DNA of 64,000 nt from positions 1-64,000 of the IMG/VR virus record IMGVR_UViG_3300025098_000019. One strand, given 5' to 3'. A model generated the notes under the pieces. It was not told the DNA's origin and did not search any database. It worked only from the letters and a program-made list of their open reading frames with translations. This document shows positions 3,908 through 60,438 of this stretch, one piece after another. Both the position numbers and the translations under genes were made by a program. This stretch comes from a virus. Each line of letters begins with the position of its first letter. Positions within the stretch are counted from its first letter, which is position 1.

Positions 3908-3935
3908 TTGAGTCAGAGTAATTGTTAAATATACT
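3908..3935 (+). promoter_or_regulatory. Possible weak sigma70-like promoter
   Basis: TTGAGT (3908-3913), a 16-base spacer and TATACT (3930-3935) lie just upstream of the plus-strand gene. The -10 box ends one base before the ATG at 3937, so transcription would begin inside the predicted coding region. Either the transcript is leaderless or nearly so, the true start is further in, or the match is chance. Confidence 0.25.
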
Positions 3936-3936
3936 T

Positions 3937-8191: not shown

Positions 8192-8208
8192 GTTATTACT
8201 ATACAGCC

Positions 8209-27824: not shown

Positions 27825-27832
27825 TATTTATT
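27825..27832 (-). promoter_or_regulatory. Late-promoter-like box AATAAATA
   Basis: Minus-strand AATAAATAT, one mismatch from TATAAATA, overlapping the last codon and stop of the giant gene. The expected transcript start leaves a leader of about 12 bases with AGGA before the ATG at 27806. It could drive separate late expression of the fibre genes. Confidence 0.45.
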
Positions 27833-30800: not shown

Positions 30801-33800
30801 TGGATCAACTACTTCTACTGATCTAATTTTGCCAGCACCTATATACGCTCTTGCTTTTGCGCCTGTGCCGCCACCGCCAACGAATGTAATTGTTGGTGTT
30901 GAAGTATACCCTTCGCCAGCATCAAATATGTTAACTGCTGTTAGCTTAAAGCCAACATTGTCTTTCCAATTTTTATCAGGATATTCATCAAACCTGTCAT
31001 CATAAACTGTTAGTTCGTCGTCAATAACAGTAACTCTTGCAGGAACAATTGATTTGCTATCTTCATTATAATATGGAGGAACATCAAAATCTGATACTAA
31101 AGTATTTGTATTATCGACCTTTTGATAAGCACTTAAATATTCTCTAACACTAGTTGAATAAGGCTTTACCTCATTAATATAATCATTATAGCTAGGTAAA
31201 CTGTCATTCTGATAAGTTATCTTTTGCTCTAACTCACCTACATTATGTTTTGCTTTTACAAAACTAGTTTTAAATACCCAGTCTACATTTAGCTGTTCGC
31301 TTAATACATATCGTACACTTGCAAAGAATAGTTTGTTATAATGAACTGCTAAGTTATCAACAAATATATTATCTTTAAGAGCAGTTAAAATATCTCTAGT
31401 TTCTTGAACTGGCTCAGTGTCATAAAAGTTTCCATCAAACGGATAATTATCATATCCAACAAAGTTAGTATTTTTACTGTACAGCTTCTTACTAAATTGT
31501 ATAGTACCATTTTCTCTACCAATAGTTTCATAATCAAAAGTATAATCTCTGTTTCCACTATTGCCAATCTTTTTAAGTAATAACCAACCTGCTGAACCGA
31601 TATTTTTTATTTTGATGATATCATTAATATCATCATCTAGTCCATATAATTGATAGCTTTCTTCTACTAAGAAATCTATTTGTGTAAATTGATTATATCC
31701 TTCTGCATACCAATTAGCATAATCCCAATATGCAGACGTATCGTAACTTTGTACTTGCTTACGTTTCCACGGTACAACAGTGTCAGTATTATCGTAATTA
31801 TAAATTGCCCATCTACCATCTATAGTAGAGTCTGACTGTACTAATACACTCAACGGTCTAACTATAATTAATGTATCTGCATCATAATTTTTACCATGAT
31901 TAATAATATTAACTTTAGTAATTTGACCCAGGTTATTAATAATAATATCTAATTCAAGGCCGGTACCTGATCCAATTACTTCGTAATCTGGGCCTGCTCT
32001 ATTAGCACTAGTTAATGGATCAAATGTCAAGTCGTTGTATCCACGTCCTGAGTTTTGTATTGCTACCCTTCTAACAGTACCGTTTTCTGCAATAACTGGT
32101 GTAAGTATTGCTGTTTCAACTTTTGCAGTGCCTAAAAATTGTAAGTCTAATTCAGTATCTACAATTCTGTCATATAAGCGTGATGTTACTAATGGTACGT
32201 CTTCTTTTCTAGAAAGTATGCTGAGATCAAAATCATCTACAACAATGTTTTCTTGAAGTACAATATTAGCACGTTCAATTACTTCTTTTAATGCTTCTGC
32301 TCTGTTAACAAACCATGACTGGCGCGGTTTAAATAATGTTCCGTACTTTTGTTTCTGAGGAAGTGTCATATCAGGAACTTCTCTGCCCCTGTCGTCATAT
32401 CCTACAAGACTGTGTATCCACTTACGTTCAAGGTCTGCTTTTGGTACACTTGTTTCAAGTCCTTCGGATAATATTTGGTATTCAAAATGTATATTTTTTA
32501 ATTCGCTGTCTGATGTATAATACCCTATATTAAGAGCAATGTCTTTGTCTGATATAAGAGATTCGCAATTAAATAGTGCAAATTTATTGTTACTTAATAA
32601 TGTCACGTAACGATAACCCTGACCACGTGGATCAGCAATTAGTCTTGAAACATCTAATGCTGTCTTTGATCTATTTTCTCTTGTTGGAAGAGTAAATTTA
32701 TCTTTAACCCAGAAGTAATACTTTTCGTTAAATGCACTTGTTTCCTTATCATATACTAATTTAACAGAGTATGCATCGTCACCATATTTACTTAGACCAC
32801 TTATACCTCGTTCTAAACCAGTTGCCGATGATGATATACTGTCCCATTCGCTTGGAATAAGATCGCTTTCAACCCACTCGTAAATATCAATACTATAGTC
32901 TTGAACTAGTGTGTTCCAATTATTAGCCTGTGTTATAGAATCTCCGTGATATGCATCTTTAAATCTTGCTGTGCTTAAATCCCACCATAACTGACCAACA
33001 TACTTGTTTTCCCAATTATTTGTTTCACTAAAGAATTCAGGTAAGTTAGTAGCATTATATCTTGCTAAATCAATATATGACTTCCACGATATTTCTTGAT
33101 CTACTTCACCGAGTATTTTACCTTGTACAGGATCAACAAAATCTAAGTATGTTACTAATTGATTAGTTTTTACATTATACAAAAATGCATGTTTTATCTT
33201 TTTAACATCAACAACATCTACAGGATTCCTAAGAACTGTCCATGCATGTGTGCCTTTTTCCATTACATAATCTAAGAATGATCCAGGATTAGTTGCTTCT
33301 GGTCCAACTGTTGGGTTTGTAGGCAATCCAATATAAACATTGTTTTGATTTAGTAGAAGAGATCTTGCAAATCTAGATCCGCCATCAACATTACTGTTAC
33401 CAACATATTCTAATTGTTCTGCTTGTAACCAATGTCCGTCAATATCTTGATATAATGTAACGCTGCCGCTATTAACGTGATCTGATAAGAAAGATGTAAA
33501 TCCGTCGTCAAACGTTGTTGGAGTTCTTTCATTACTATCTTCATCTAATACATACGAATTTAACGATATTGGATCTTGGTATCTGTCGAAGCGTGTTTCA
33601 ACTTTAATGTTACCGTTGAAACTTGATACACCAATATACTCGTCTGTTATAGACACTGCATATCCAAACTGATCAGCAAGCTCAGTGCCTGGTCCTGATA
33701 TTGTTTGTTTCAACGTAAAGTGAGGTGCAGTGTCAAGTGTATAAATGTATGCTTTACCTGTGTCAAATCCATCTTCATCATTTCCAGGTTCACCAACAAC

Positions 33801-36800
33801 TAAAACGTGTCCAGTTGTACTTAAATCAATTGAACTTCCCCAATTAGTATTTGAAGTGGGTGCAACAATTTCTTGATGGAACACATATCTAGTGTCTTGT
33901 AGTCTGTAAATTAAAATCTTATTATCTTCATCAACCGAAGTATCAGTTTCAGCACTAACTGCTATTACTTCACCGTTTTTACTTACTGCTAAGTCTTTAG
34001 TAAAGTCAATAACTGTTTCGCCTAAGTCATCAAATAGTGCGTCTGGGTCACTACCATTACTATACAAAGGATGATCATTTGGAACATGGCTTAGATAATT
34101 TATTCTGTTGTTTAATGGTTGCCACTTGTTACTAGTAGTTGGCGAGCCTGTTGAAAATGTTCTTGCTTGATATAACTGATAGTTGTCAACTACAATTTCA
34201 TTTATTAAGTAACTGGCTGTTACTGACCATGCACCTCTATATCTTTTATCTTTATCAAGTGCATATTCGTATGTTACGCCGTCATCGTCAGTACCATGTT
34301 TTAATAGATATACTTTATCTTTTGAACCTACAAATATTCTATATAATTCATTTGTTTGTGCTATTGCTACTTTTTGTCCAACACGCTGACCAACGCCGCC
34401 TGTTGCACTACCAGGTATTGAATAAGTGTCAACATAAGACCATTGAGAGTCGAATCTTTTATATATTGTGTATACACCTTGATTAGCAATAGAATTAATT
34501 GTTCCAGTATTATTAACTGGTGCGTTGTAAACAATTACCCAATCATTGTTAAGTATTGACGGAATACTAGCTGGTAAATCTCTGCCTTCCTCGGTCAATG
34601 TTTCTTGGTAAATCCAATATTCTTTATTTGCATAAGCAAAAACATCTAAACTTGAAAATTGAGTTAACCCGCCATAACTATTTGGATTAATTGGGAAGTT
34701 TGATCCGCTTGGATGATTAAGTACTACTAGTTTTCCTGTAATAGAGTTAAACGTTGATACATTTTGTATTTCACCCATTCTACGCTGATTTGGTGAACCA
34801 TTTTCTAAAGTATTAAGTACAATAGAATTTCCTGAACTAAAAATTTTGTTTGCGCTTTTATTTTTAATATATACACGAGCTTTGTTTACATCTCTGTTTA
34901 GATAATAAGCAACTTCAGCCGTTGCTCCAGTAAATGCATCTTCAATAATATCACCTGGAATAGGTTCAAAGAAATCTTGGAACTGACCGTCACCGTCTGT
35001 ATCAACACCAACTGGTTGTCTGTCAATTTGAATAAAATCAATCCAGCCATCCCACATATCTTGTACTTCGTGTGTTTGACTATTAATTTGCTCAATTAAT
35101 CCAGGGTCTTGTAAGCCAACTAAACTAAAATCATATGACGGATTTTGCTTGTCTATATAAAGTCTAACATTAGTACCTACAGTTGTTTGCGCTTCTATTT
35201 CTTTTGGAAGTCTAACAATCCAACGAGTGTCAAAGAAATTTGTAGCACTAGTATTATATTCTATACCAGTATGTGACAATACAGAAATATATGCAAGATA
35301 CTTGTCTGTATTTGTAGGATAAACAGTATCTAAACTATTAATATAATAGTTAGGCTCTCTAGGATCTTCACTAGTAATTAAATCTTGATATACTAGACCA
35401 TATGCTGGTGTTCCAAAATCAGTTAATGCACTAAATTCGTTTGCATTAATATACTCTGCTGTTTGTACTTTCCAAAAACCACCTAAGTGTGATAAAGGTT
35501 TAAAACTAGGTTGTGTATATTGTCCAATTACGTCTTCTCTACCGTTTCTAAGTTCGTCAGTTTCTATTAATACACCATTAGTATCTTTAATGTAAAGTAG
35601 AAGTTTATCTTGTTCGATGAATACTGACGCAACTGTTCCAGCGCCTTCGTTAGTTATAACAGTATCACCTACAGACGGTGGATTATTAAATGCTGTTAGA
35701 TATAACACATAATCAATTTTTTCTAAAATTTCATGTTTGCCGTTGTTTGAAAATCCATTGTCAATAAAGTCTGAATTAGGAATTACATTAACGCCATCGT
35801 TTAAATCATTTAACCCATTTGGCCAAACTTCAATAGCTTCGCCTTCTGCTATTTGTCTATTTAAGTTAGTGTACTTGTTCCATTTTAAAACAATATTATC
35901 TGTAACTTTAGAAGCACGATATTGATCAAACGGTGCTCTAATTAATATATGGTCAACTGTTTTATTTGCAAAATACGGCTGTCCTTGCAATAGTAGCGTA
36001 ATGTCATTAATGTATGATAATCCTGCATTAGTTGCTGCTATTTCAGTAAATGCATAACTGTCAAATGTGCTATACTCTAGTGTTACTTCAGCAGCAGGTA
36101 CATTTCTTACTGCTCTCCAAAAGTTTTCTTGATAAGAAACCATGTCAAGTTGAGAATAGTTAGTATTAGCGTTCCATTCACCTTGGAAAGTTTCGCTTAT
36201 GTTACTTGCGCTTGGTGATCCTACTACTAATAGTTTACCGTCTGGTGATAAAGCAATACTTTCGCCAAATGCTTGACGATCATTCATTGGTGCTACATCA
36301 GTATCAGGCTTTAATATATCTAATAGTTTAAATTCACTTTTATAAGTTGGACGTTGCCAAACTTCAACTACACCATTATTAGATTTTGAATTTGCTATTG
36401 CAACATTTAAGTTTTCGTTAGATGCAGCAATATCGTTACCATAAGAATTATCTATTGACGATTCAGTATCTTGAGTGTAGTATTCGTTAAAGTCTAAGAA
36501 ACTTTCTTTCTTTTGTAAAACAGACCACTGATTGTCAGTACCGTCAATCCATAATTTTTGATTGTGTGATAAATCTTTTTCAATGATTGAATTTGCAGTT
36601 TGTATATTACTAGAACGAACACTTCTTAAACGGGTTAAGTAACCATTGCCTTCTCCAGTTTCAATATCTTGTACAGTTTGTGTTATACCTGTACGTACAT
36701 CGAGCTGGTTGTTACGTACTGCTTTAATTTCATAAAATCCGTCATTACCTCTGCCCAAGTTTCTAACACCAATAATGTCTCCTGGTAAGAAATGTGCAGC

Positions 36801-39800
36801 TTTTTTAATTGTTATAGTTGCTAATGGTGTTGCATTTATAAATTCACCATCTGCTTCTTCAGCAAAGCCTTGTATACCAATTACTTTATCACCTGAAACT
36901 ACATGTTGTAATATATCCCAATCTTCGTTTTTGCCAGTTACCCAAATATATTCATCAGAACTAATTCTATTAACATCTGCTGTGAGCATATCTTTAACAT
37001 CTGCTACAGTATATGTAATATCATCTTCGTTAACATATCCAGAATCTATAATTTCCTTATAATAGTCTTTTACTGTTGGAAACGGTTTGTGATTATAGTC
37101 TAATGGTTTTGAATTTACCTGATACGGTAAAATTTTAATTGATAAATCTACATCATTAATCGCTTTTGAATTTACTAGCTCTACAGTTTGTGGTTGAACT
37201 CTAAATTCATTTTCATCAATAATGTATTCAACTTCTTCGTAACTATCAACAGCACCATATTGCCCTACTCTAAGAGCCCATTCTTCGTAAAATTCTAAAC
37301 TATCAGTATCGTCACTACCTAGTGCATCAAACAGTTTTGTTAATGCATTTGGTGTTCCTTTGTCTTGTATAAATCCTTGATAAAATTTGTACTGACTAAC
37401 ATCATCATTAATGATGTTTGAAAGGTATTGTCTTTTTTGGTAACCAATTAAATGTTGTGCATGTTTTTGTTGTTCAACATCAAAGTTGTCGCTATCTAAA
37501 TCATAAAAATCAGCAAACTGTATTGATCTATAATCAAAGTTAGGAAGTAGTCTTGGCGTTGGTCTTTTATCTAGTCTTTCCCAATCTTGTGGTACAAAGT
37601 TTTCAACACCTTTTAGATCTATTTTTGCAACATAATAAAATTCTTTATATTTGACCAAAGCACCTACATCATAATCTTGCCATTGTTCCCACTCAGTTAC
37701 TATTGCTTCGTCGTAAATAAATCCTGGAATATTTAATCCGCCAGTCCATTCGTCACTTCTATATCCAATAACTTTTATTCGCTCTTGTCTATACCCTGCT
37801 GGACGATCAAAAATTACATCATTAAACACAGTTTCGTTGTCTAACAAAATAACATGTTCTATTTGCACTAATGGCAAACGAACTCCGTAAATTCCGTCCT
37901 CTGAGTTTTTAACTTCAAGACCAAATTGGTTTTCAGAATCTCTAGCAATAGAAGTAAAGTTGCGTTCTAATAGTTTTCCATCAGCTTTTACTAAACTATA
38001 ATTATAAAACTTATCAAAAATATCATCAACAACTGCATATTCTTTATAGAACTTAAATTGTTGTGCGCCAGGTGATAAAGTAAGTACACTACCAGCTGAC
38101 CAGTTTTGTGTAGTCCAGAACATAAGCTCTTTTACACTATATGTCCAATCTTCAATTACACCAGTTTCTTTATTAAAGTAATCAAATACAAACCCTTGGT
38201 CCATTAAATATCTTTCATACCCTAATATAAAGTCTACAAGTTCTTGTACAGTTCTTAAGGTTGTGCCATAAGGGTAGTTTTTTACTACGTTAGTAAAATT
38301 ACGTCTTAATATTGCATCTCTGCCGCCCACTGTTGGCAATGATGATAATTTAGCAAATTTATCTTGGTCAAAGGTTGAGCCACTAACATGACTGCTTATA
38401 CATCTATAATAAAATCCGTCATAACGTACATTAGCTGATTTTACATATTGCTTACTTTCGTTCCAAATAACAAATTCTTCGCTGATGCCGCCAATATTAA
38501 TAACAGGGTCAGTTGACTTAGCACTTGCTTCATAAAAATCAAATGACGCTTTCTGCTTGTCGTAACCTGCTATTGACCAGCCGTTGGGTCTTTTTTCAAC
38601 AATTATACCACTAAGTACAGCAGTATCAATTGGAGCACTTTTATTTAAAATTATCTGATAGTTTTCTTCTGGTACAAAAACATTGCCTTCATTTAAAGGA
38701 GTTCTTGAATCTAATATAAGTTTAAACTTTTCTTTTTCTGTGAAGCCGCCTACTTTAATAGCAAGTTTATTGTCAATCGACGCTATACTCTGTGTATATT
38801 TTTTCCATGTAACATCAATATTTGTTGCTAAGAAGTTGTAAATGTAATTTACTAATCCACTACTTAACACACGGGTGTTATCATTATATGTGTTTGGAAA
38901 TACTAAGTCAGTAGTTCTAATTGGAGTATTACTTTCGGTGTATACCAAATGTCCTACTAAGTTACGCTTAATTCTTGATATGTCATAACCAAGGCCCATT
39001 AGTTTTGCAGGCTGATTTAACATCCATGATGTAATTAATGCAAACGGATATTCTGAACTTTGTCTCCATGCTGTTTCTATTGGGCTGTGATCGCCGAATG
39101 TAAACTGGCTTCTAGTTTTTATTTGTACATAATTTTTAGCATAGTCGCTAGTTAATGGATCAACTAAGTTTCCTTCAGCGTCAACAGGTAAGTGATTTAA
39201 CAACCCAGGACGTACATACTTTGAGTTAACAATAGTTTGTGCATTAGGATCTCTAATTATTCCTTGCTGTAAATCTTCCCACATTACAAAGTTTGAATTA
39301 GTATATGGTGCTGGACCATACACTTCGCTCCACCACTGTGGTTCAATTGTAAGTCCTAACATTTCCCACGGATGTGTATGTGGGCGGTCAGTATCAAATG
39401 CTTCTTTATAAACTCCTCTCCAAAAACCCGGTAATGACTGGTCTTGTGGTGAACTCATTGCTGAGAAGTTAAATGTAAATTTATTTGTTTGTGACCAAAA
39501 ATCTATATTGGAATAATCAAGGCCGCCTGCAATGTCATTCCATTCTACAAAATCAGCTGACATTGCACTATTAATTTGTTGTCTTGTAAATCCTGTATCT
39601 CTATTAGTACCACTAACAAATTCGTTAATATCTAAAATATCTGTATTATACTTTTGTTTAATATTATTAAATATTCTTTTTTCAAAATCTAATATTAAGT
39701 CATCTCTATAATCGCCATATGCAACTACAATGCTGCCGTCGTGTCCTTGAATAACTTCTCTATTAATTGCTGTTGTAGTATCTGTATATTTTTTAGGATG

Positions 39801-42800
39801 GTATGCAGGATATAATCCTAACTTAGTTGGCGTAGCAGGAATAAAACATCCGTCAGTAGTTTCGTACTCGTAAAGATCAATTTCGTCACCGTTGTTCAAT
39901 TCAACTTTAATATTAACAAAACCTTCATCAGTAAACACATATTCTTTTTCATGTGTTAATTGTATTCCGTTAACGTACACTAGTACTGCCTTTGCACTCA
40001 ATGCATCTAAATTAAAATATTCTGATAATGCAAAAAACTTACTAGAGCTAGGTAATACTTTATATGATATTCTATTGTCTGCTTTATATGCAAGCATGTC
40101 AGAGAAGTAAAACGGCATACCTTCTGATTTTTCAGAATTTATTTTTTGTAGTACTTTGTCTACATGTACTTTAACAGGACCGTCAAAACCCAAAGTTGAT
40201 GCAGTTTGTATAAACTGTCTTTTAAATTTAGCATATTCATTTTTAGAATATCTAAGAGCTTTAACAATATTTGCATCTTTATCAACGATATGGAATAATG
40301 GTAAGTTAATTGGACCACTGTGCTTTAAAAATCTTCTGCCATATTGATCAATATCTCCGTAGTCTCTTAACGGATGCTGTTCTAAGTCAATTAAATTTTC
40401 TTGTATTGTGTTAACGTGATCAAGAACTTCACCTAACGTAAATTCTTTTGGATTTTCGTTTAACGGATTTCGTTCAAAGTTACTTGCCATTTCATAGTAG
40501 GCATTACCATTTATAATTGCTTCGCTGCTATAGAGTTTAATAACAATATTATCGTCTACATTTAATGTTTTTTCAAATGTTAACTCTCTGTCTTTGTTAA
40601 TGCTATAGTCTGTAGTAATATCATTATTAACAAATACTGCAATGCTTTCATGTATATTTTTAAAAACACTTACATTAAATGATTCATTATCTACGCCTTC
40701 GGCAATATATTGTAATATTGCTGCTTGCTCACTATTTTTATTAGCTTTAGTCCAACCATTTTGGTATGTAAACTCTGTAGGTGAATTAAACTTCTTTAAG
40801 AATCCAGCTTCTAAATTATATGTTAAAATTTCATTATCTAAATTATACTGAACAGTTTCTGTAATTAACGGAAACTCAAAAAGTATATCACCTAAATTTT
40901 CTATATTTTTGTAAGATAACCCAAAGCCTAACTCTTTGTCATTTGCTTCTACTTCGCTAACTTTATAAGAGAATATTTTAGTTCCTCTAAATGTAGAATC
41001 TGGATATTGAATAACATCTGAAAAACTTGATCCGTCATGGTCAAACAAATCAAATAATGGTTGTTGATTTGTCTGCGTTTTGTCCTGTGCTAAGTGCCAG
41101 TTAGTGCCGTTAAAATAATATATCAACCCAGAATTACTACCGTTTTTAATTAAAACAGTTTCGTCTAACATTGGATTAGTATCTTTTGCTTCAACTAAAC
41201 TAATAATATTATTATTGTCAAACTTAATAAAGTTAACTTCATATATTTTATTATTTGCTCGAACATCAGTATCTGTTGTAACTAGAATACGCATTCCGTT
41301 TGATAACGGTACACCATCAATGCTATAACCTGTGGCGCCTTCAATAGTGCTGAATATATCTGTTGTTACAGTGTCAATTAAATCAACATCATGTTTTGAA
41401 TTAATTCCGTAGCCGAATAACTTTAGTCCTGCTTCAAATTCAATAATAGGTCTAGAAGCTCGCTCGCTCAGGTCAACTACAGGTTGCTGATTATTGTAAA
41501 ACGCACTTTTCTCAATTACGTCTTTGTGAAACCATCTATTATATCTAGTCCAAGCATTTCTATCTAAACTTGCTCTATTAATAATAATATAATCTTTAGT
41601 TCCGGCGTATGCACTTGCATTACCAAAAGGTCTTCTATCAAAAGGTTCAGAATCAAAAGGTACAAATACATCGCCTGTGTATGCTGCTGGTATAACTAAG
41701 TTTCTTTCATCAATAAGTTTAATTGAATCTCCAACACCTTCAACATAATATTCGCTGTTTGCATATTCACTTGGTGTTACATTTCCAAGGAAACTAACTT
41801 TGAGTCCATTAGTAAGCTCTACGCCATTAGCACTTTTATAATAACGCTTTTCAAGTATATCGTTAATATCAATACTTGTATTTTCAACAATATCAAATAC
41901 TTTGATATAACCACTTGTGTTAATATTAGTGCTACTAACATAATATAAATTTTCTGGCGAATTAAACGGAACTGTAAATTCTATAGTTCCTTCTTCGACG
42001 TTTATAGGTAAAATTTCATTGTTATTAACATCGTATGCTTTTATTCCATCAACATATCGATTACTAACATTAGTTGCATTATTATATGTACTTGTTACTT
42101 CAACTCTTACATTTGGTGCACCACCGTCGCCTAGGTCTGCATCAAAGAATGTAATTACTTCTCCTGAAGTAAAGTTTTCGCCACCTTCAATAACGCTTAC
42201 ACTACTAACAACTCCGTCTGCAGAAATAATAACTTCAAACTTTGCAAATTTACCGTTTTCAGTTGAAACATAATCAGTAATTTCGTATGTACCAGGAACT
42301 CTTAAACTATTCTTTGATGTTCTAATATTAGTAGATTTAATTTCACCATTCGAAGGTGTTACTACTACATAATTACCGTCTGAATCTTGAGATAATTTAA
42401 AGTCAGCATCGTTAAATTTTCTATTTGTTGTAAAAGATATTGGATGGCCTTTGCAACGAATTTTAAATCTATATGTCTGTCCTTTATAAAGTGTTAATGT
42501 TGGGTTAGCATCAAACGCAGGAGGATCAAATTTGTATACTGTATTATCATCTTGTACTTCAGTAGTAACAGTATATTCACTTTGTTCAGTGTCATTTCTT
42601 CCAAATACATTTACAGTCTGCGGACCGTTTGGCATCCAGTAGTAATCTCTAAAGTTTACAAACTTATCCCAATCAATATTTGGATTCCAAGCATAAAACT
42701 CTTGTCCTGACAGCAAACTTTGATTTGAAATGTCACCGTTTAAATTTTTAATTTGATTAACATAATCGGAATAGTCACCGTAAAAGTTAACATTATTTAA

Positions 42801-43076
42801 ATTGTCGGTAATAACTGTAGATGATTCAAATTGTCTGTTTTGTCGCTGGGTGCTTACATCTTCAATATAAGTATCGCTGGCCCTATAAGCCTTTGCAGTT
42901 GTTCTTCCAACATACCCCGAAACCTTTTCTGCTGTTCCTGGTTGAAATAATTGATCAATTGTACTTGATAATATTTTTTCGTTAGTGTCAGTTCTAAAAT
43001 ACTTAGGTAAAAGGTCTACGCTTTTTCTTTTTGAATTGTCACCTGTTGGTAGAGCTGCGTCTTCTTTATTTGCCAT
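27828..43076 (-). CDS. Giant 5082-residue virion protein (gp7/gp8 position, putative baseplate or fibre)
   Basis: 5082 residues, roughly 560 kDa, uninterrupted. It follows gp6 and precedes the fibres, the place of T4 gp7-gp8. Residues 1-120 contain LPKYFRTDTNEK and FYAWNPNIDWDKF segments and may anchor it. Four copies of a carbohydrate-binding CBM5/12-like pattern (W...Y..G..V.Y....Y.A) lie near residues 1536, 1795, 2296 and 2948. FG-GAP-type propeller repeats (LLVVGSPSAS, HVLVVGEPGNDEDG, FGYAVSITDEYIGV) lie at about 2215-2290 and 3020-3210. Glycine-rich turns such as IFDAGEGYTS and VVDPGTGYLS recur around 3980-4120. An AAGGA site precedes the ATG. It probably combines wedge and adhesin roles; no direct proof. 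Confidence 0.9.
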   Translation of the reverse strand: MANKEDAALPTGDNSKRKSVDLLPKYFRTDTNEKILSSTIDQLFQPGTAEKVSGYVGRTTAKAYRASDTYIEDVSTQRQNRQFESSTVITDNLNNVNFYGDYSDYVNQIKNLNGDISNQSLLSGQEFYAWNPNIDWDKFVNFRDYYWMPNGPQTVNVFGRNDTEQSEYTVTTEVQDDNTVYKFDPPAFDANPTLTLYKGQTYRFKIRCKGHPISFTTNRKFNDADFKLSQDSDGNYVVVTPSNGEIKSTNIRTSKNSLRVPGTYEITDYVSTENGKFAKFEVIISADGVVSSVSVIEGGENFTSGEVITFFDADLGDGGAPNVRVEVTSTYNNATNVSNRYVDGIKAYDVNNNEILPINVEEGTIEFTVPFNSPENLYYVSSTNINTSGYIKVFDIVENTSIDINDILEKRYYKSANGVELTNGLKVSFLGNVTPSEYANSEYYVEGVGDSIKLIDERNLVIPAAYTGDVFVPFDSEPFDRRPFGNASAYAGTKDYIIINRASLDRNAWTRYNRWFHKDVIEKSAFYNNQQPVVDLSERASRPIIEFEAGLKLFGYGINSKHDVDLIDTVTTDIFSTIEGATGYSIDGVPLSNGMRILVTTDTDVRANNKIYEVNFIKFDNNNIISLVEAKDTNPMLDETVLIKNGSNSGLIYYFNGTNWHLAQDKTQTNQQPLFDLFDHDGSSFSDVIQYPDSTFRGTKIFSYKVSEVEANDKELGFGLSYKNIENLGDILFEFPLITETVQYNLDNEILTYNLEAGFLKKFNSPTEFTYQNGWTKANKNSEQAAILQYIAEGVDNESFNVSVFKNIHESIAVFVNNDITTDYSINKDRELTFEKTLNVDDNIVIKLYSSEAIINGNAYYEMASNFERNPLNENPKEFTLGEVLDHVNTIQENLIDLEQHPLRDYGDIDQYGRRFLKHSGPINLPLFHIVDKDANIVKALRYSKNEYAKFKRQFIQTASTLGFDGPVKVHVDKVLQKINSEKSEGMPFYFSDMLAYKADNRISYKVLPSSSKFFALSEYFNLDALSAKAVLVYVNGIQLTHEKEYVFTDEGFVNIKVELNNGDEIDLYEYETTDGCFIPATPTKLGLYPAYHPKKYTDTTTAINREVIQGHDGSIVVAYGDYRDDLILDFEKRIFNNIKQKYNTDILDINEFVSGTNRDTGFTRQQINSAMSADFVEWNDIAGGLDYSNIDFWSQTNKFTFNFSAMSSPQDQSLPGFWRGVYKEAFDTDRPHTHPWEMLGLTIEPQWWSEVYGPAPYTNSNFVMWEDLQQGIIRDPNAQTIVNSKYVRPGLLNHLPVDAEGNLVDPLTSDYAKNYVQIKTRSQFTFGDHSPIETAWRQSSEYPFALITSWMLNQPAKLMGLGYDISRIKRNLVGHLVYTESNTPIRTTDLVFPNTYNDNTRVLSSGLVNYIYNFLATNIDVTWKKYTQSIASIDNKLAIKVGGFTEKEKFKLILDSRTPLNEGNVFVPEENYQIILNKSAPIDTAVLSGIIVEKRPNGWSIAGYDKQKASFDFYEASAKSTDPVINIGGISEEFVIWNESKQYVKSANVRYDGFYYRCISSHVSGSTFDQDKFAKLSSLPTVGGRDAILRRNFTNVVKNYPYGTTLRTVQELVDFILGYERYLMDQGFVFDYFNKETGVIEDWTYSVKELMFWTTQNWSAGSVLTLSPGAQQFKFYKEYAVVDDIFDKFYNYSLVKADGKLLERNFTSIARDSENQFGLEVKNSEDGIYGVRLPLVQIEHVILLDNETVFNDVIFDRPAGYRQERIKVIGYRSDEWTGGLNIPGFIYDEAIVTEWEQWQDYDVGALVKYKEFYYVAKIDLKGVENFVPQDWERLDKRPTPRLLPNFDYRSIQFADFYDLDSDNFDVEQQKHAQHLIGYQKRQYLSNIINDDVSQYKFYQGFIQDKGTPNALTKLFDALGSDDTDSLEFYEEWALRVGQYGAVDSYEEVEYIIDENEFRVQPQTVELVNSKAINDVDLSIKILPYQVNSKPLDYNHKPFPTVKDYYKEIIDSGYVNEDDITYTVADVKDMLTADVNRISSDEYIWVTGKNEDWDILQHVVSGDKVIGIQGFAEEADGEFINATPLATITIKKAAHFLPGDIIGVRNLGRGNDGFYEIKAVRNNQLDVRTGITQTVQDIETGEGNGYLTRLRSVRSSNIQTANSIIEKDLSHNQKLWIDGTDNQWSVLQKKESFLDFNEYYTQDTESSIDNSYGNDIAASNENLNVAIANSKSNNGVVEVWQRPTYKSEFKLLDILKPDTDVAPMNDRQAFGESIALSPDGKLLVVGSPSASNISETFQGEWNANTNYSQLDMVSYQENFWRAVRNVPAAEVTLEYSTFDSYAFTEIAATNAGLSYINDITLLLQGQPYFANKTVDHILIRAPFDQYRASKVTDNIVLKWNKYTNLNRQIAEGEAIEVWPNGLNDLNDGVNVIPNSDFIDNGFSNNGKHEILEKIDYVLYLTAFNNPPSVGDTVITNEGAGTVASVFIEQDKLLLYIKDTNGVLIETDELRNGREDVIGQYTQPSFKPLSHLGGFWKVQTAEYINANEFSALTDFGTPAYGLVYQDLITSEDPREPNYYINSLDTVYPTNTDKYLAYISVLSHTGIEYNTSATNFFDTRWIVRLPKEIEAQTTVGTNVRLYIDKQNPSYDFSLVGLQDPGLIEQINSQTHEVQDMWDGWIDFIQIDRQPVGVDTDGDGQFQDFFEPIPGDIIEDAFTGATAEVAYYLNRDVNKARVYIKNKSANKIFSSGNSIVLNTLENGSPNQRRMGEIQNVSTFNSITGKLVVLNHPSGSNFPINPNSYGGLTQFSSLDVFAYANKEYWIYQETLTEEGRDLPASIPSILNNDWVIVYNAPVNNTGTINSIANQGVYTIYKRFDSQWSYVDTYSIPGSATGGVGQRVGQKVAIAQTNELYRIFVGSKDKVYLLKHGTDDDGVTYEYALDKDKRYRGAWSVTASYLINEIVVDNYQLYQARTFSTGSPTTSNKWQPLNNRINYLSHVPNDHPLYSNGSDPDALFDDLGETVIDFTKDLAVSKNGEVIAVSAETDTSVDEDNKILIYRLQDTRYVFHQEIVAPTSNTNWGSSIDLSTTGHVLVVGEPGNDEDGFDTGKAYIYTLDTAPHFTLKQTISGPGTELADQFGYAVSITDEYIGVSSFNGNIKVETRFDRYQDPISLNSYVLDEDSNERTPTTFDDGFTSFLSDHVNSGSVTLYQDIDGHWLQAEQLEYVGNSNVDGGSRFARSLLLNQNNVYIGLPTNPTVGPEATNPGSFLDYVMEKGTHAWTVLRNPVDVVDVKKIKHAFLYNVKTNQLVTYLDFVDPVQGKILGEVDQEISWKSYIDLARYNATNLPEFFSETNNWENKYVGQLWWDLSTARFKDAYHGDSITQANNWNTLVQDYSIDIYEWVESDLIPSEWDSISSSATGLERGISGLSKYGDDAYSVKLVYDKETSAFNEKYYFWVKDKFTLPTRENRSKTALDVSRLIADPRGQGYRYVTLLSNNKFALFNCESLISDKDIALNIGYYTSDSELKNIHFEYQILSEGLETSVPKADLERKWIHSLVGYDDRGREVPDMTLPQKQKYGTLFKPRQSWFVNRAEALKEVIERANIVLQENIVVDDFDLSILSRKEDVPLVTSRLYDRIVDTELDLQFLGTAKVETAILTPVIAENGTVRRVAIQNSGRGYNDLTFDPLTSANRAGPDYEVIGSGTGLELDIIINNLGQITKVNIINHGKNYDADTLIIVRPLSVLVQSDSTIDGRWAIYNYDNTDTVVPWKRKQVQSYDTSAYWDYANWYAEGYNQFTQIDFLVEESYQLYGLDDDINDIIKIKNIGSAGWLLLKKIGNSGNRDYTFDYETIGRENGTIQFSKKLYSKNTNFVGYDNYPFDGNFYDTEPVQETRDILTALKDNIFVDNLAVHYNKLFFASVRYVLSEQLNVDWVFKTSFVKAKHNVGELEQKITYQNDSLPSYNDYINEVKPYSTSVREYLSAYQKVDNTNTLVSDFDVPPYYNEDSKSIVPARVTVIDDELTVYDDRFDEYPDKNWKDNVGFKLTAVNIFDAGEGYTSTPTITFVGGGGTGAKARAYIGAGKIRSVEVVDPGTGYLSAPRIIVAGSIANGGREGSLNAVIGDTVVRSMHVDVKFDRVSGDYFVVDLPETQQFTGTGAKTKFDLKWPMDLRNNKIQVFVDDEKSLRNDYTYLNVDNTDISYTRQLGQIVFAKPPALDAVIRVEYFKDPAMLSAQDRIKHRYFPTEGMPGVDLGQLMSGVDYGGVEVRSFDFDGPAGWDTDEWYTSTWDTYDNTYEDQLFVADGSTTVIELDTPLENGIVYNIYKNGIRIDDADYPANPSNPNAVMPSLTGNGSQVLINLADYEVDGMPGDRFIVRKVSSDGSFLPDAASYDTQLIGGDFIGNASGVKAEDIVIDGDLFVTSNNSGGPEELVPGQVLDTVDLTVYERIGSGNGQIYNQTFITNEGDSTFNIGVTPSSDDAVIVKVNDEIINSSEYTLDYINLTITFNEAFVANNRLNIITVGVSGKDIISIDQLITDGTSIVYETAIPWTDILQIYTRYNGAVTKELEVISRESDNGFVEFLFNPNIPSAGNVLDYEIYSNREEQNYSRVVRDSYVASTLQKEFTLSQTPIYKDPQSFFTVVIIDNVVQRPGYQKVYIVEDDTLLNYSLETFQVPYSSIDITDVFVYLNGNKLTRNESFTVATGSSSINFLAGLLNEGDKIEIFLENGSYTIEGNQLVVEQDLYAGTKVQVMQFSNHDIIEIHRTSYDIEIPLTLVPGDETDRYNNLTAGKVLLNAPAIDAQYVWIAVSGQLLTPNVDYKLVTPLLIQLNNTLEKGQDIDIIHFAAPASTPTIAWKQFKDILNRTHYKRFDTAEGIYLTEPLQSNDLRVYVNSTVGLQNPNKKLNQPGVLWINKERIEYFAISGNTLRQLRRSTHGTGAGDIYDVGTPVYAMGINKNMPYRDEIVTTNYVAADQQKQFVLDFTPTRGVDEFEVFAAGKRLRKTEIKSFDPTVALDSPAGDITIPPEFTVVNSVLVLTTPLDEGQKIAVVRKIGKLWSETGTPLKDAENDIGRFLRKSISELPK

Positions 43077-54324: not shown

Positions 54325-54351
54325 ATGTTTATACTAACTGGAGATATTCAA

Positions 54352-55203
54352 TTGAGAAAACGAAATTACCTAAATAACAAAGATATTCTATCTGAAATAC
54401 ACAAATCAAAGAGCACATACTGTAGCTTTATTGAACCTGAACATGCACAGTTTGACATCATTTTACTAGATGTTGACAAAATAAACATAAGAACTATAGC
54501 CGAAGCAAAGCGAAACAAAGCAAAACGTCTTAGTACTGCGGATTACGAAGCAAGAAGAATGGCTGGAGAAAAAGTTAAGCAAGCAGAATGCGAAGTTGAC
54601 TATAGAAAAATTACTAAAGAAGAGCTAATTTTCCGTGTTATGACGTTTGATCATATCCCAGAAGAGCCAGGAAGAAAAAAGAACCCAAAGACCATTGCTG
54701 ACACAAAAGTAAAGCTAAACTTTCCACCATTCCACCATTACAAGTTTGACGAAGACGGAGTCTTGCAATTAGTAGGAAAAAGTCACTGGGAAGGCGGCAT
54801 GCAAAACGGTGCTTTCAATCATAAACACGGAAAAGCAACAAATACACTTGCTACTATGTGGTTAAAGTTAGTTGACAGATATGCTACCCGAGGCAATGTA
54901 CGTGGTTACACATACAATGACGAAATGAAAGGTCAAGCAATACTCCAGTTAGCACAGATTGGCTTACAGTTTGACGAATCAAAGTCAAACAATCCATTTG
55001 CATATTACACAGCAGCCGTTACTAACAGTTTTGTACGTGTTATTAACATTGAAAAACGTAATCAAAACATTAGAGACGACATTCTTGAGATGAACGATCT
55101 TAATCCTAGTTACACTCGACAACACCAAGGTGAATGGGAAGCTTCTGTTAAAAGAAACGAAGAAGCAGGATTTTCTATACACAAAGACACAAAAACCGGT
55201 TGA
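54352..55203 (+). CDS. gp55: Late-transcription sigma factor gp55-like
   Basis: 283 residues from the TTG at 54352 (start sequence RKRNYLNNKDILSEIHKSK). GGAG at 54340-54343 lies eight bases upstream, whereas the nearer ATG at 54325 overlaps the promoter's -10 region. The region YATRGNVRGYTYNDEMKGQA, IGLQFDESKSNNPFAYYTAAVTNSF and RVINIEKRNQ is the conserved core of the T4 gp55 family, which with the sliding clamp and gp33 directs host RNA polymerase to TATAAATA promoters. Such boxes occur elsewhere in this window. It is larger than T4 gp55 (185 residues), as in marine relatives. Confidence 0.93.
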   Translation: MRKRNYLNNKDILSEIHKSKSTYCSFIEPEHAQFDIILLDVDKINIRTIAEAKRNKAKRLSTADYEARRMAGEKVKQAECEVDYRKITKEELIFRVMTFDHIPEEPGRKKNPKTIADTKVKLNFPPFHHYKFDEDGVLQLVGKSHWEGGMQNGAFNHKHGKATNTLATMWLKLVDRYATRGNVRGYTYNDEMKGQAILQLAQIGLQFDESKSNNPFAYYTAAVTNSFVRVINIEKRNQNIRDDILEMNDLNPSYTRQHQGEWEASVKRNEEAGFSIHKDTKTG

Positions 55204-55228
55204 CTTTTATAGTATTTGACCTTATAAT
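55200..55228 (+). promoter_or_regulatory. Sigma70 promoter of the gp47-gp46-hemE-hemC operon
   Basis: TTGACT (55200-55205), a 17-base spacer and TATAAT (55223-55228). The -35 box overlaps the gp55 stop codon. The transcript should start near 55235, giving a short leader with GAGGA before the gp47 TTG. It makes the six-gene operon independent of late sigma factor. Confidence 0.88.
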
Positions 55229-55256
55229 TAATAAGAGTGAATAGAGGAATCTAAAT

Positions 55257-56276
55257 TTGTTTAAGAAAGCAGCAGTTTTTACTGACATACATTTTGGCCT
55301 AAAAGGCAACAGTCGCATACATAATGATGATTGCGAAGAATTTGTAGATTGGTATATCGAAAAAGCCAAAGAACACGGATGCGAAACAGGAATATTCTGT
55401 GGCGACTGGCACCATAACAGAAACAGCCTTAACCTTACAACTATGGATGCAACTATTCGTAGTTTAGAAAAACTTGGTAAGGCATTTGATAAATTTTATA
55501 TGTTTGTGGGTAATCACGACTTGTACTATAAAGACAAGCGCAATGTTAGTTCAACTATATTTGGAAAACACATTGAAGGTATTACATTTATAGATGAAAT
55601 TTATCAAGAAGATGATGTGGCTCTTGTACCGTGGCTAGTAGGCGACGAGTGGAAGAAGATTGAAAAAATTAAGTCCAAGTATATGTTTGGGCATTTTGAA
55701 TTACCAAGTTTTTATATGAATGCTTTGGTTAGAATGCCTGATCACGGTGACTTACGCCCTCAACACTTTAAACATCAAGAGTACGTGTTTAGTGGACATT
55801 TCCACAAACGTCAAGTACAAGGTAAAATACATTATATCGGAAATGCTTTTCCTCACAACTATGCAGATGTAGGTGATGACGAACGTGGCATGATGATCCT
55901 CGATCGTGAGAATAATAAAGAGCCTGAATACATTAATTGGTGGAACTGTCCTAAGTATAGAACAATTAAACTTTCAAAATTAATTGACGATGCAGATGCT
56001 TTTATTAAACCTAAAATGTATCTAAGAGTTGAACTAGACTTACCTATTAGTTATGAAGAATCTAGTTTCATTAAAGAGACATTTATTAAACAATATAACT
56101 GTCGTGAAATTACACTAATTCCACAAAAACAAATTGAAGAAATTACTACTGATTTAGATATTAGTACGTTTGAATCAGTTGACCAAATTGTAGCAAGTGA
56201 AATAACAGAACTTGATACAGAAAATTACGATAAATCGATGTTACTAGACATCTATCATGGATTAGAGAGTTATTAA
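55257..56276 (+). CDS. gp47: Recombination endonuclease subunit gp47-like (Mre11/SbcD)
   Basis: 339 residues. The metallophosphoesterase motifs are complete: FTDIH (D10, H12), CGDWHH (D50, H52), GNHD (N86, H87, D88), GHFE and GHFHK. With gp46 it forms a Mre11-Rad50-type nuclease that resects DNA ends in recombination-dependent replication and host DNA breakdown. The start is TTG at 55257, with GAGGA eight bases upstream; the length matches T4 gp47 (339). It directly abuts gp46. Confidence 0.96.
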   Translation: MFKKAAVFTDIHFGLKGNSRIHNDDCEEFVDWYIEKAKEHGCETGIFCGDWHHNRNSLNLTTMDATIRSLEKLGKAFDKFYMFVGNHDLYYKDKRNVSSTIFGKHIEGITFIDEIYQEDDVALVPWLVGDEWKKIEKIKSKYMFGHFELPSFYMNALVRMPDHGDLRPQHFKHQEYVFSGHFHKRQVQGKIHYIGNAFPHNYADVGDDERGMMILDRENNKEPEYINWWNCPKYRTIKLSKLIDDADAFIKPKMYLRVELDLPISYEESSFIKETFIKQYNCREITLIPQKQIEEITTDLDISTFESVDQIVASEITELDTENYDKSMLLDIYHGLESY

Positions 56277-58049
56277 ATGATTCGCATTAAAGACCTAACT
56301 GTTAAAAACTTTATGAGTGTGGGTAATCAAACACAGGCTGTAGATTTTAACAAAGACAACTTAACGTTAGTACTTGGTGAAAATTTAGATCAAGGTGGGG
56401 ACGACAGTGGCTCACGTAATGGTACTGGTAAAACTACAATCATTAATGCACTAAGTTATGCATTATACGGTACTGCACTTACTAATATCAAACGAAACAA
56501 CTTGATTAATAAAACTAACAGCAAAGGAATGTTAGTTACACTACACTTTGAAAAGAACAACGTAGACTACAGGATTGAGCGAGGACGCTCTCCTAATATT
56601 TTAAAGTTTTATGTGAACAATCAAGAGCAAGAACAAATTGACGAAAGTCAAGGTGATAGCCGTAAGACACAAGAAGAAATTGATTCCTTGTTAGGAATGT
56701 CGCACACAATGTTTAAAAATATTGTTGCACTAAACACATATTCAGAACCGTTTCTTGCAATGCGTACAAATGATCAACGTGCTATTATTGAACAACTATT
56801 AGGTATTACATTATTGTCTGAAAAGGCAGAAGTACTAAAAGAAGGTACACGTAGAACTAAAGATGCAATTACCGAAGAAACTCTTAAGATTGAAGCAATA
56901 CAAACTGCTAACAGTAAGATCGAAGGCACTATTGACAATCTAAAGAAGAATCAACGTGCATGGGTCGCAAAACAACGATCTGATGTTGAAAAACTTAACA
57001 AAGCTATTGGTGAGTTAGAACAATTAGACATCGATACAGAACTTGAATTGCACGAAAAACTATCAAATTGGACTGAACATAATAATTCTATTTTGGCTCT
57101 TAAAAAGGAATTAAGCACATTAGAGCCGGCACTATTACGTGCTGACAGATCTGTTGAAAAAGCAAAAAAAGATGCCGCTGATTTAGATCAAGGCACATGT
57201 CATTCGTGTGGACAAGATCTTCCTGCTGATAAAAAAGCAGAGATAGAAAAACGCAAACAGTCGGAATTAGAAGATGCTATTTCGTATCAAACAGAGATAC
57301 AAGAAAAGGTTTCTTCTGTTGCTGAAGCACTAACAGAAATTGGTGACATTAACGGCAAACCTACAACATTTTACGATACTGCAAAAGAAGCATATGAACA
57401 TCGAAGCAACGTTGAAAATTTACGCAATGCTTTGATAAGTAAACATGAGGATACAGATCCTTATCAGAGTCAAATTGACGAATTAAACGATAGTGCAATT
57501 CAAGAAGTTAATTGGGAAAGTGTAAATCAATTAACGTCTTACAAAGAGCACCAAGATTTCTTATTGAAACTGCTTACTAACAAGGACAGTTTTATTCGTA
57601 AAAAGATTATTGATCAAAATCTTGCATATCTAAACAACAGGCTTACATACTATCTTGACAAATTAGGCTTACCACATCAAGTACTATTTCAAAATGATCT
57701 AGCTGTTGAAATTACACAGTTAGGACAGGATTTAGATTTTGATAATTTAAGTAGAGGCGAACGTAACAGATTGATTTTAGGACTATCATTTGCATTTAGA
57801 GATGTTTGGGAAAGTTTATATCAAGGTGTTAATTTACTGTTTATTGACGAATTAATTGACAGTGGTATGGATACAGCAGGTGTTGAGAATTCACTAAGTG
57901 TCCTTAAGAAGATGGCTAGGGAACGTGAAAAGAATATCTACTTAATTAGTCACAAAGACGAACTAGTTGGTAGAGTTAATAACGTATTAAAAGTAATAAA
58001 AGAAAACGGTTTCACTAGTTACGAGAACGATGTAGAAGTTGTAGAATGA
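56277..58049 (+). CDS. gp46: Recombination endonuclease subunit gp46-like (Rad50/SbcC)
   Basis: 590 residues. Walker A GSRNGTGKT at 45-53, a coiled-coil from about 170 to 450 with a zinc hook CHSCGQ at its tip (C308, C311), ABC signature LSRGERNRL near 490, and Walker B NLLFIDEL near 521. These are the SMC-type ATPase features of the gp46 partner of gp47. It starts immediately after gp47 and ends in an ATGA overlap with hemE, so the heme genes are translationally coupled to it. Confidence 0.96.
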   Translation: MIRIKDLTVKNFMSVGNQTQAVDFNKDNLTLVLGENLDQGGDDSGSRNGTGKTTIINALSYALYGTALTNIKRNNLINKTNSKGMLVTLHFEKNNVDYRIERGRSPNILKFYVNNQEQEQIDESQGDSRKTQEEIDSLLGMSHTMFKNIVALNTYSEPFLAMRTNDQRAIIEQLLGITLLSEKAEVLKEGTRRTKDAITEETLKIEAIQTANSKIEGTIDNLKKNQRAWVAKQRSDVEKLNKAIGELEQLDIDTELELHEKLSNWTEHNNSILALKKELSTLEPALLRADRSVEKAKKDAADLDQGTCHSCGQDLPADKKAEIEKRKQSELEDAISYQTEIQEKVSSVAEALTEIGDINGKPTTFYDTAKEAYEHRSNVENLRNALISKHEDTDPYQSQIDELNDSAIQEVNWESVNQLTSYKEHQDFLLKLLTNKDSFIRKKIIDQNLAYLNNRLTYYLDKLGLPHQVLFQNDLAVEITQLGQDLDFDNLSRGERNRLILGLSFAFRDVWESLYQGVNLLFIDELIDSGMDTAGVENSLSVLKKMAREREKNIYLISHKDELVGRVNNVLKVIKENGFTSYENDVEVVE

Positions 58050-59029
58050 GTAACGAAAAATTTAATAATGCATGTAATAGAATAGCACAGCCATGTCCGC
58101 CTATATGGATGATGAGACAAGCTGGACGGTATCAAAAAAGTTACATGGAACTAAAAGAAAAATACACGTTTGAACAAATGTGTAAATTGCCGCAACTTGC
58201 TATGCAAACGGCAATGCTACCGATTAACGAGTTTGACTTTGATGCCGCAATATTGTTTAGCGACATACTTTGGCATTTAGAAGGATTAGGATTTCCTGTT
58301 GAATTTGCTCCAGGTCCTAAGTTTACAGAACACTTAACTGAAGAAAACTATTCTAAGTTTACTGATGTTGACTCAGCAATGTTACACCTTGAATTTCAGA
58401 AAAAAGCAATTATTGCTACAAAAGAAAATTTGTCGCAAAAGAAAAGTTTGATTGGCTTTGTAGGTGGTCCTTGGAGTTTACTTAACTATGCGTTAGGAAC
58501 TAATAAAGTTAGTAAAGAGTTTAAAACAATGTATCTTAAAACTGTACTTGTTCCTCTAATAAAAGAAAGTATTAGAGAGCAAAAAAGAGCAGGTGCTGAT
58601 GTTGTAATGATACTCGATAGTGGACTAGACAATGTTAGTAAAAGTTATTACGACACTACATATATAGAATTTCTTAAAGAAATTGCGTTAATTGGTGATG
58701 TAGGTTATTATGTTAGAGGCATACCAGAAGGAAGTCTTTCTAAAATAAAAAAATTAGACTTCGCTGGCATTGGTATTGACAGTTCTCAAGATTTACCTAA
58801 AACATTAAAAACATATTCAAAAGGATTTGTTCAAGGAAACTTTAACGAACAATTTTTATTACTTGAAACAAGATTATTCAAATACGAATTAGATAAGTGG
58901 TTAGACACACTATCAGGTGTAGACACTACAGGATGGATATGCGGATTAGGACACGGTATTACAAAAACTACTCCAACAGATCATATTCATCATTTTGTAA
59001 AAACAGTTAGGAGTCATTTTAGTTCATGA
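58046..59029 (+). CDS. hemE: Uroporphyrinogen decarboxylase
   Basis: 327 residues, slightly shorter than bacterial HemE (about 345-355). The substrate-binding motif RQAGRY is at 24-29 and the catalytic aspartate in FSDI at D73. GGPWSLLNYALG and the C-terminal CGLGHGITKTTPTDHIHHF match the family. HemE removes four carboxyl groups from uroporphyrinogen III to give coproporphyrinogen III, on the way to heme and chlorophylls. The start overlaps gp46 as ATGA. Immediately followed by hemC (ATGA overlap). All key residues appear intact, so activity is expected. hemD is not in the window. Confidence 0.95.
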   Translation: MSNEKFNNACNRIAQPCPPIWMMRQAGRYQKSYMELKEKYTFEQMCKLPQLAMQTAMLPINEFDFDAAILFSDILWHLEGLGFPVEFAPGPKFTEHLTEENYSKFTDVDSAMLHLEFQKKAIIATKENLSQKKSLIGFVGGPWSLLNYALGTNKVSKEFKTMYLKTVLVPLIKESIREQKRAGADVVMILDSGLDNVSKSYYDTTYIEFLKEIALIGDVGYYVRGIPEGSLSKIKKLDFAGIGIDSSQDLPKTLKTYSKGFVQGNFNEQFLLLETRLFKYELDKWLDTLSGVDTTGWICGLGHGITKTTPTDHIHHFVKTVRSHFSS

Positions 59030-59766
59030 TTAGAGTCGGTGCAAGAGGAAGTAAATTAGCTCTAGCATATGCTAGGAAAGCATGTGAGCAATTAGATTGC
59101 GAAACTGAAATTATTGAAATTACAACTCCAGGTGACATCGACACCGAAACTCCTATATACGAAATGGGAGGTAAAGGTGTATTTTGTAGTACAATTGAGC
59201 AAGAACTATTAAACGGTAATATTGACGTTGCTGTTCATAGTTTAAAAGATGTTCCTGGCCAAGAAACAGACGGATTAATAATTGCTGCAATGTTGCAACG
59301 AAACAGTCCTCATGATGTTCTTATTGGAAAAGTTAGTTATAATTGCACTATTGGAACTAGCAGTCCTAGACGTACTGCACAATTATTAGATCTTTACAAA
59401 GACTTGAGAATTAATATCAAACCTATTAGAGGAAATATAGATACTAGGTTAGAAAAACTTGACAATGGCGAGTATGATGCTATAATACTAGCAGAAGCTG
59501 GGCTTCAAGCACTTAATATATCAAGACCAACAGTTAAGGTACCAACTATTCCTGCTGTAGGACAAGGTATTATTGCTTTGCAGACTAGACAGGACGACGA
59601 AGAAACAATAAAAATAGTTAAACAGGCAAATCACGATAAAACATTTAAACAGGCAACAATTGAAAGAGCATTTTTAAAAGGCATAGACGGAGACTGTCAT
59701 ACAAAAATAGCAGCTCACGCAACTGGATCAAATCCAATTACACTTAAAGCAATGTATTATGAATGA
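59026..59766 (+). CDS. hemC: Porphobilinogen deaminase (hydroxymethylbilane synthase), short form
   Basis: 246 residues against about 310 for bacterial HemC. R7 in GARGSK, HSLKD with catalytic D75, SSPRRTAQL (R115, R116), IRGNIDTR (R135, R141) and the dipyrromethane-cofactor cysteine in GIDGDCHTK (C224) are all present. Only about 22 residues follow C224, where bacterial enzymes have about 70, so domain 3 is shortened. It polymerises four porphobilinogens to hydroxymethylbilane, the substrate of HemD. It overlaps hemE (ATGA) and the next gene by 8 bases. Probably functional, but the cut domain should be tested. Confidence 0.94.
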   Translation: MIRVGARGSKLALAYARKACEQLDCETEIIEITTPGDIDTETPIYEMGGKGVFCSTIEQELLNGNIDVAVHSLKDVPGQETDGLIIAAMLQRNSPHDVLIGKVSYNCTIGTSSPRRTAQLLDLYKDLRINIKPIRGNIDTRLEKLDNGEYDAIILAEAGLQALNISRPTVKVPTIPAVGQGIIALQTRQDDEETIKIVKQANHDKTFKQATIERAFLKGIDGDCHTKIAAHATGSNPITLKAMYYE

Positions 59767-59971
59767 TGACATACACGACGAATTAGTACAAACGTACTTA
59801 AAATACTTTCGGGCAAATGAAAAATTTGCTAGACGTAATTCTGTTAGACTACATGCCGAGGTGCGAAGACATCTTAGAAATCTAAGAAAATTAGCCAAAA
59901 TAAGAATGGAAGAGATACACATATACCAGGCAGAAAACAAAGTAACCAGAAAAGACATAGATAAAAAATAG
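59759..59971 (+). CDS. Small basic hypothetical protein
   Basis: 70 residues, strongly basic and helical (NSVRLHAEVRRHLRNLRKLAKIR), similar in character to small phage proteins of T4-like marine viruses. It overlaps the hemC stop by 8 bases, which supports translation. Function unknown; a nucleic-acid-binding role is only suggested by charge. Confidence 0.72.
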   Translation: MNDDIHDELVQTYLKYFRANEKFARRNSVRLHAEVRRHLRNLRKLAKIRMEEIHIYQAENKVTRKDIDKK

Positions 59972-59988: not shown

Positions 59989-60438
59989 ATGCAGTGGACT
60001 TATGAAGGCAAAATTATAGACAATATACCAGACGAATACGAAGGTTTTGTTTATATCATTACAAACACCACTACAGATCAAAAATACATAGGCAAAAAAC
60101 TAGCAAAGTTTAAAACTACTAAGCCACCACTTAAAGGCAAGAAAAATAAAAGACGCGGTTACAAAGAAAGCGACTGGAGAACATACTACGGTAGTTCTGA
60201 TAGATTAAACGCAGATGTAGCCGAGCTAGGCGAAGACAAGTTTACAAGAGAAATATTATACCTATGTAAAGGTAGGGGCGAAATGTCCTATATAGAGGCA
60301 CGAGAGCAGTTTGACAGGCGAGTACTTGAAACTGATGATTACTATAATGGTATCATTAATGTTAGAGTAGGCGGATCAGACAAACTTAAACAGGCATTGC
60401 TAGAACATCACATCAAGGCAAAACATTCCAACACCTAA
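59989..60438 (+). CDS. GIY-YIG-type protein resembling T4 SegE
   Basis: 149 residues. GFVYIITNTTTDQKYIGKK places the VY-I and KYIG halves of a GIY-YIG nuclease core, and SDWRTYYGSS follows as in SegE-type proteins. An EAREQFDRRV helix could provide the catalytic glutamate. SegE in T4 is a free-standing homing endonuclease. Here the gene is last in the sigma70-driven operon and lies directly against a 535-base gene-free stretch with RNA-like folding, a pattern that would suit a homing element. An unrelated DNA-repair or virion role is possible. Confidence 0.8.
   Translation: MQWTYEGKIIDNIPDEYEGFVYIITNTTTDQKYIGKKLAKFKTTKPPLKGKKNKRRGYKESDWRTYYGSSDRLNADVAELGEDKFTREILYLCKGRGEMSYIEAREQFDRRVLETDDYYNGIINVRVGGSDKLKQALLEHHIKAKHSNT

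Follow-up and report, generated by a model that had tools for sequence, protein, structure and literature searches.

The question raised by IMG/VR virus record IMGVR_UViG_3300025098_000019 is why a phage should carry hemE and hemC, two genes of the heme pathway, directly behind its gp46 gene. We analysed the first 64 kb of this 110,010-base linear record (64,000 nucleotides, 35% GC; hereafter the window), in which a preliminary description had placed the two genes within a gp47/gp46 operon and had read them as a two-step supplement, with the host providing HemD, the enzyme that acts between them. Our answer, to which we give a probability of about 0.66, is that the pair is a phage-borne heme-flux module, carried as optional cargo behind gp46 and completed by HemD from the host. 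Enzyme activity, host, translational coupling and benefit are parts of this answer that we infer from sequence.

The arrangement of the genes can be read directly in the sequence, and coordinates, order and overlaps are as first described. The gp46 gene (SbcC-like ATPase subunit, 56277..58049, phrog_77, E = 5.6e-103) lies directly 5′ of hemE, with which it shares an ATGA stop/start overlap at 58046..58049. The hemE gene (uroporphyrinogen decarboxylase (UROD), 327 amino acids (aa), 58046..59029, PF01208, E = 8e-63) overlaps in turn, through a second ATGA at 59026..59029, with hemC (hydroxymethylbilane synthase, 246 aa with a shortened third domain, 59026..59766, PF01379, E = 4.6e-64). Upstream, the stop of gp47 (SbcD-like nuclease subunit, 55257..56276, phrog_100, E = 4.9e-67) at 56276 abuts the start of gp46 at 56277, and all four genes are on the plus strand. 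Given that ATGA overlaps usually mean coupling, gp46, hemE and hemC are presumably translationally coupled and co-translated. The gene order is repeated in many independent IMG/VR contigs at protein identities of 61–84%, and this recurrence rules out chance frames or an assembly error.

The heme genes form a modular viral cassette, of which hemE-hemC is one version. Behind gp46 in IMG/VR relatives we found hemC alone, hemE alone, hemE-hemC or hemE-hemF-hemC, and elsewhere there are contigs with hemE-hemF-hemC or hemF-hemC-hemE(-hemB) in other contexts, the latter order in T4-like contigs. The idea of a fixed two-step supplement therefore had to be given up, given that the pair is a single combination in a set that extends from hemC to hemF-hemC-hemE-hemB. 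Among 79 close gp46 relatives the slot behind gp46 holds heme genes in 15, is empty in 62 and is cut off in 2, which fits the expectation for optional cargo. The slot is bordered on its 3′ side by a conserved 70-aa open reading frame (ORF; 59759..59971, plus strand) that shares 8 bases with hemC; its copies, 44–71% identical, come after gp46 or after the hem genes, and they occur whether or not a relative has heme genes. A profile scan returned 208 stretches in viral contigs that encode HemC relatives, and deposited phages hold no near relative, the best HemE and HemC matches being below 60% identity. We regard the heme genes as probable phage auxiliary metabolic genes, host-derived, selected and optional, with a presumed effect in infection.

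Some observations on the cassette and its searches stand apart. Several entries of the ‘phages’ collection, AGRM01000005.1 and AGRM01000003.1 among them, resemble bacterial chromosome and inflate metabolic-gene matches. In L289 / L364 (IMGVR_UViG_3300032085_001050), two consecutive hemC ORFs follow gp46, a possible duplication or broken gene. A second hemE is found near hemF-hemC at L055:4731-8910, with a UvsW helicase gene between; it is of typical alphaproteobacterial form (343 aa, 404 bits to TIGR01464) and represents an independent capture.

Family matches, folds and residues agree on the identities that had been proposed for both proteins. The AlphaFold model of HemE, built from an alignment of viral rows (predicted local distance difference test (pLDDT) 92.4), has UROD structures for all of its top 24 PDB matches (E = 7e-21 to 9e-18); the methyltransferase 4ay7 ranks after them (E = 4e-12), indicating a UROD and not a methyltransferase fold. 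R24, R28, D73, Y148, S192 and H303 are invariant (24/24 viral rows), and the protein retains the substrate-binding arginine pair (MRQAGRY) and the catalytic Asp, Tyr, Ser and His. HemC passes the TIGR00212 equivalog (261 bits, cut-off 164) and matches the first half of PF03900 besides PF01379. Its AlphaFold model (pLDDT 92.9, alignment of viral and cellular rows) has porphobilinogen deaminase 1pda as the top PDB match (TMq 0.90), with about half of domain 3 left. In the phage alignment R7, S9, K50, F53, K74, D75, R115, R116, R135, R141 and Cys224 are invariant; among them the catalytic Asp (D75), the dipyrromethane-cofactor Cys (C224) and the active-site arginines R7, R115, R116, R135 and R141 were followed through 23 phage rows. 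The positions listed for both enzymes, matched through alignments, are ones of known importance. Both hem genes are under purifying selection, with pairwise ratios of nonsynonymous to synonymous change (dN/dS) of 0.09–0.18 for hemE and 0.11–0.15 for hemC, next to 0.08 for gp46. Residues, fold and selection together suggest that phage HemE is a working enzyme, and the same evidence argues for a working phage HemC.

The comparison with host genes that the preliminary description had proposed places HemC beside SAR11 and HemE with a group of alphaproteobacteria that we call HIMB59-like. The top 18 cellular matches of HemC come without exception from Pelagibacteraceae or Pelagibacterales (43–47% identity), and in the HemC tree the 30 phage rows form one clade (100/99) beside 20 SAR11 rows (both together 100/98). 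When 398 Pseudomonadota genomes were scanned for HemE, a single genome of 1.21 Mb led clearly, with 209 bits versus 124 for the next. This genome and two others carry an operon of the order hemCD fusion-hemB-hemE-(hemH)-hemF-hemJ with alaS divergent (L259:6342-13315, L260:1344-9410 and L261:5253-11403); gene names were read from translations, for hemC and hemE also from profile matches, and ‘HIMB59-like’ is our provisional label for the three genomes. In this near-complete heme operon, hemC is fused to a further domain that we read as HemD. Phage HemE groups with the HIMB59-like rows (100/100), is 36–40% identical to them and 30% to SAR11, and has small deletions and a C-terminal motif in common with them. 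A grouping of HemE with SAR11 is rejected by the approximately unbiased (AU) test (p = 7.5e-5). In an earlier HemE tree, made without HIMB59-like rows, the phages had stood next to SAR11, with a branch length of 3.9 changes per column; the fuller tree moved them. A HIMB59-like origin of HemC, on a long branch, is not rejected (AU p = 0.43), and HemF is nested in SAR11 at 96/91 but with an AU p of 0.07, so that its placement is not firm. Hence, the cassette is only probably of mixed origin, with two donors favoured but not proven. For phage HemB, the HIMB59-like HemB is the best of those compared (38%).

The step between the two enzymes is the one that the phages appear to lack. PF02602, the family searched for HemD, has no match in the 110,010-base record, which is a fragment, or in 65 other viral records, likewise fragments (66 distinct records in all), and control genomes matched as expected. 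A SAR11 HemD profile found no relative in 2.9 million IMG/VR viral contigs. The search beyond the window suggested by the preliminary description was thus negative throughout a record that is itself part of a probably larger genome. The hemD gene is found in 16/16 SAR11 genomes tested, and at SAR11 loci an ORF of 230–246 aa lies directly 3′ of hemC, where PF02602 matches. Because SAR11 hemD adjoins hemC and the viral records show none, it seems that the phages acquired hemC and left the adjacent gene behind. Two viral candidates for hemD were rejected: in relatives, hemE and hemC are separated by hemF, and in other contigs the 283-aa ORF that follows hemE is hemB. At L049:7655-8008 (also L048, L051 and L075), an ORF of 114–117 aa without a Pfam match lies between hemE and hemF; it is too short for a normal HemD. 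The gene content of phages and SAR11 supports the original view that HemD is absent here and would have to be supplied by the host.

In the mechanism we propose, phage HemC would join porphobilinogen into hydroxymethylbilane and raise its supply, host HemD would close hydroxymethylbilane to uroporphyrinogen III, and phage HemE would decarboxylate this to coproporphyrinogen III, committing flux to heme and not to siroheme or B12. For the window phage the host would then complete the pathway, whereas related phages would add HemF and sometimes HemB; the hem genes are repeatedly linked to hemF and hemB, which belong to the same pathway, and this argues for a role in heme flux. In known systems HemC is slow and HemD is fast, which offers a simple explanation for the consistent absence of HemD from the cargo: the phage would supply slow steps and omit one that is probably not limiting. 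The pair could in this way boost tetrapyrrole flux, as first supposed, and the likely benefit would be that host respiratory hemoproteins are kept supplied during infection. By gene ancestry, the host is likely an alphaproteobacterium.

Several results weigh against this interpretation. HemE scores 197 bits to the NCBIfam equivalog TIGR01464, below the cut-off of 303. The cut-off is a naming threshold and not a biochemical feature, and HIMB59-like HemE from heme operons falls short of it as well (188–195 bits); we therefore take the low score to be a lineage trait on which the cut-off does not discriminate. The statement that all key catalytic residues are kept holds for every position but one, given that window HemC has Ala at the position of E. 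coli Arg176, a position that is also non-Arg in SAR11 HemC rows. The preliminary description had also missed that HemC is without about 50 C-terminal residues, the end of the third domain, compared with cellular HemC; short internal stretches are missing in addition. Complete HemC measures 245–256 aa in the core phage clade and 273–287 aa in outer phage lineages, against at least 297 aa for cellular HemC in the same sample except two rows of 270 and 272 aa, one of them cut by a contig end. Of 71 newly sampled loci, 70 show the shortening, the exception being a row that is shorter still, at 179 aa. It need not destroy function, given that NCBIfam includes a short cellular HemC model, PRK01066, of 241 positions. 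Moreover, hemC alone is the commonest filling among related phages with an occupied slot, which implies that HemE is not required for the benefit that selects the cargo. Finally, activity, expression and host are all deduced.

Some of these points, and the HemD gap itself, invite other explanations. The shortened HemC, the lost Arg176 equivalent and a HemE far from typical UROD would suit proteins that have given up heme-pathway catalysis for another role. This is unlikely, given that all other key residues, including the cofactor cysteine, are invariant in the phages, that the genes are linked to hemF and hemB, and that the same peculiarities have cellular counterparts, SAR11 HemC also being without Arg176 and HIMB59-like HemE being equally divergent. 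The slot that is empty in most relatives might instead suggest recently captured host genes riding along as neutral passengers, but strong purifying selection, a deep viral clade (100/99) and recurrence in many contigs leave this the least probable of the alternatives.

HemD could also be encoded elsewhere in the same phage, which would make the genes part of an unbroken pathway segment with no dependence on host HemD. The 110,010-base record is a fragment without end repeats, and by gp46 the closest named phages are PA5oct, a phage of Pseudomonas, together with Phosso and Atu_ph07, both jumbo phages (45–49%). As these relatives have jumbo genomes of about 286–490 kb, the genome of this phage probably far exceeds 110 kb. 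HemD is in addition poorly conserved, with strongly diverging sequences (PMC7242693), and a viral HemD could escape PF02602. However, the 66 records and the 2.9 million contigs yielded none by family match and SAR11 profile, respectively, and the genes that separate or flank hemC and hemE in relatives proved to be hemF and hemB; we consider a hidden HemD improbable. Alternatively, the gap might be deliberate: excess hydroxymethylbilane would outrun host HemD and cyclise unaided to uroporphyrinogen I, which HemE would convert to coproporphyrin I, a dead-end tetrapyrrole that would serve the phage by acting as a photosensitiser, binding metal or poisoning the pathway. Hydroxymethylbilane closes spontaneously to the type I isomer and UROD accepts type I; the gene most often carried is hemC, frequently by itself, and no HemD has been seen in the viral records. 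Against this, hemF is present in many relatives, and HemF yields a product of the heme route and does not accept the type I isomer; hosts also retain hemD. A type I product is a very unlikely purpose. The heme-flux module with host HemD remains the reading we prefer.

Phage heme-synthesis genes were known before as scattered single steps: AlaS, ferrochelatase and one mention of HemC and HemF. The mention is a single sentence on coproporphyrinogen oxidase and porphobilinogen deaminase genes in one pelagimyophage (‘deep ecotype’; PMC7029224). These HemF and HemC genes, from uncultured T4-like phages assigned to SAR11, are probably of the same gene stock as those described here, but the paper has no analysis of cassette, structure, ancestry or HemD and does not mention HemE or HemB. 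The viral 5-aminolevulinate synthase valaS, which complements E. coli (PMC11480375), is likewise a tetrapyrrole auxiliary metabolic gene of aquatic phages thought to raise flux; it acts at the first pathway step, however, and is associated with genes for heme breakdown and for bilins (hemO, pcyA/pcyX), not with the middle steps HemC, HemE and HemF. Pelagiphage ferrochelatase (PMC9599517) is also a heme-related gene in SAR11 phages, but it serves the last pathway step and occurs in podoviruses. Phage HemE, phage HemB or such cassettes were not found in the openly licensed papers whose full text was searched. Among cells, the HIMB59-like heme operon holds the closest relatives of phage HemE, although its HemC and HemD are fused and phage HemC resembles the SAR11 protein far more. 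The SAR11 hemC-hemD pair holds the closest relatives of phage HemC, but there HemC is about 300 aa with hemD directly next, whereas the phages have a shortened hemC and no hemD.

The surroundings are those of a large, marine, T4-like phage, probably of jumbo size. The stretch 54325-58049 holds a late sigma factor gene (gp55-like) together with gp47 and gp46, and the next gene downstream of the 70-aa ORF encodes a SegE-type GIY-YIG endonuclease (59989..60438, plus strand, PF19835, 2.3e-35) that occupies the same place in relatives. Beside tail genes, window positions 536-12841 contain at least four, probably five, radical S-adenosylmethionine ORFs (536-1474, 1419-2804, 2817-3884, 5569-6555 and 11456-12841) and an NAD-dependent epimerase (9218-10195), possibly an island for surface-sugar or peptide modification. 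Giant ORFs of 5082, 2234, 2509 and 3563 aa, located at window positions 27828-43076 and record positions 77485-84189, 84335-91864 and 94092-104783, probably encode fibres or other structural proteins of a large phage.

The HIMB59-like operons can serve as an outgroup and would provide native HemC-HemD fusions. Phage HemC is a naturally shortened hydroxymethylbilane synthase and could show how much of the third domain the enzyme needs. A recurring middle-pathway cassette without HemD poses the testable question of which host heme steps are limiting for a virus that infects abundant ocean bacteria.

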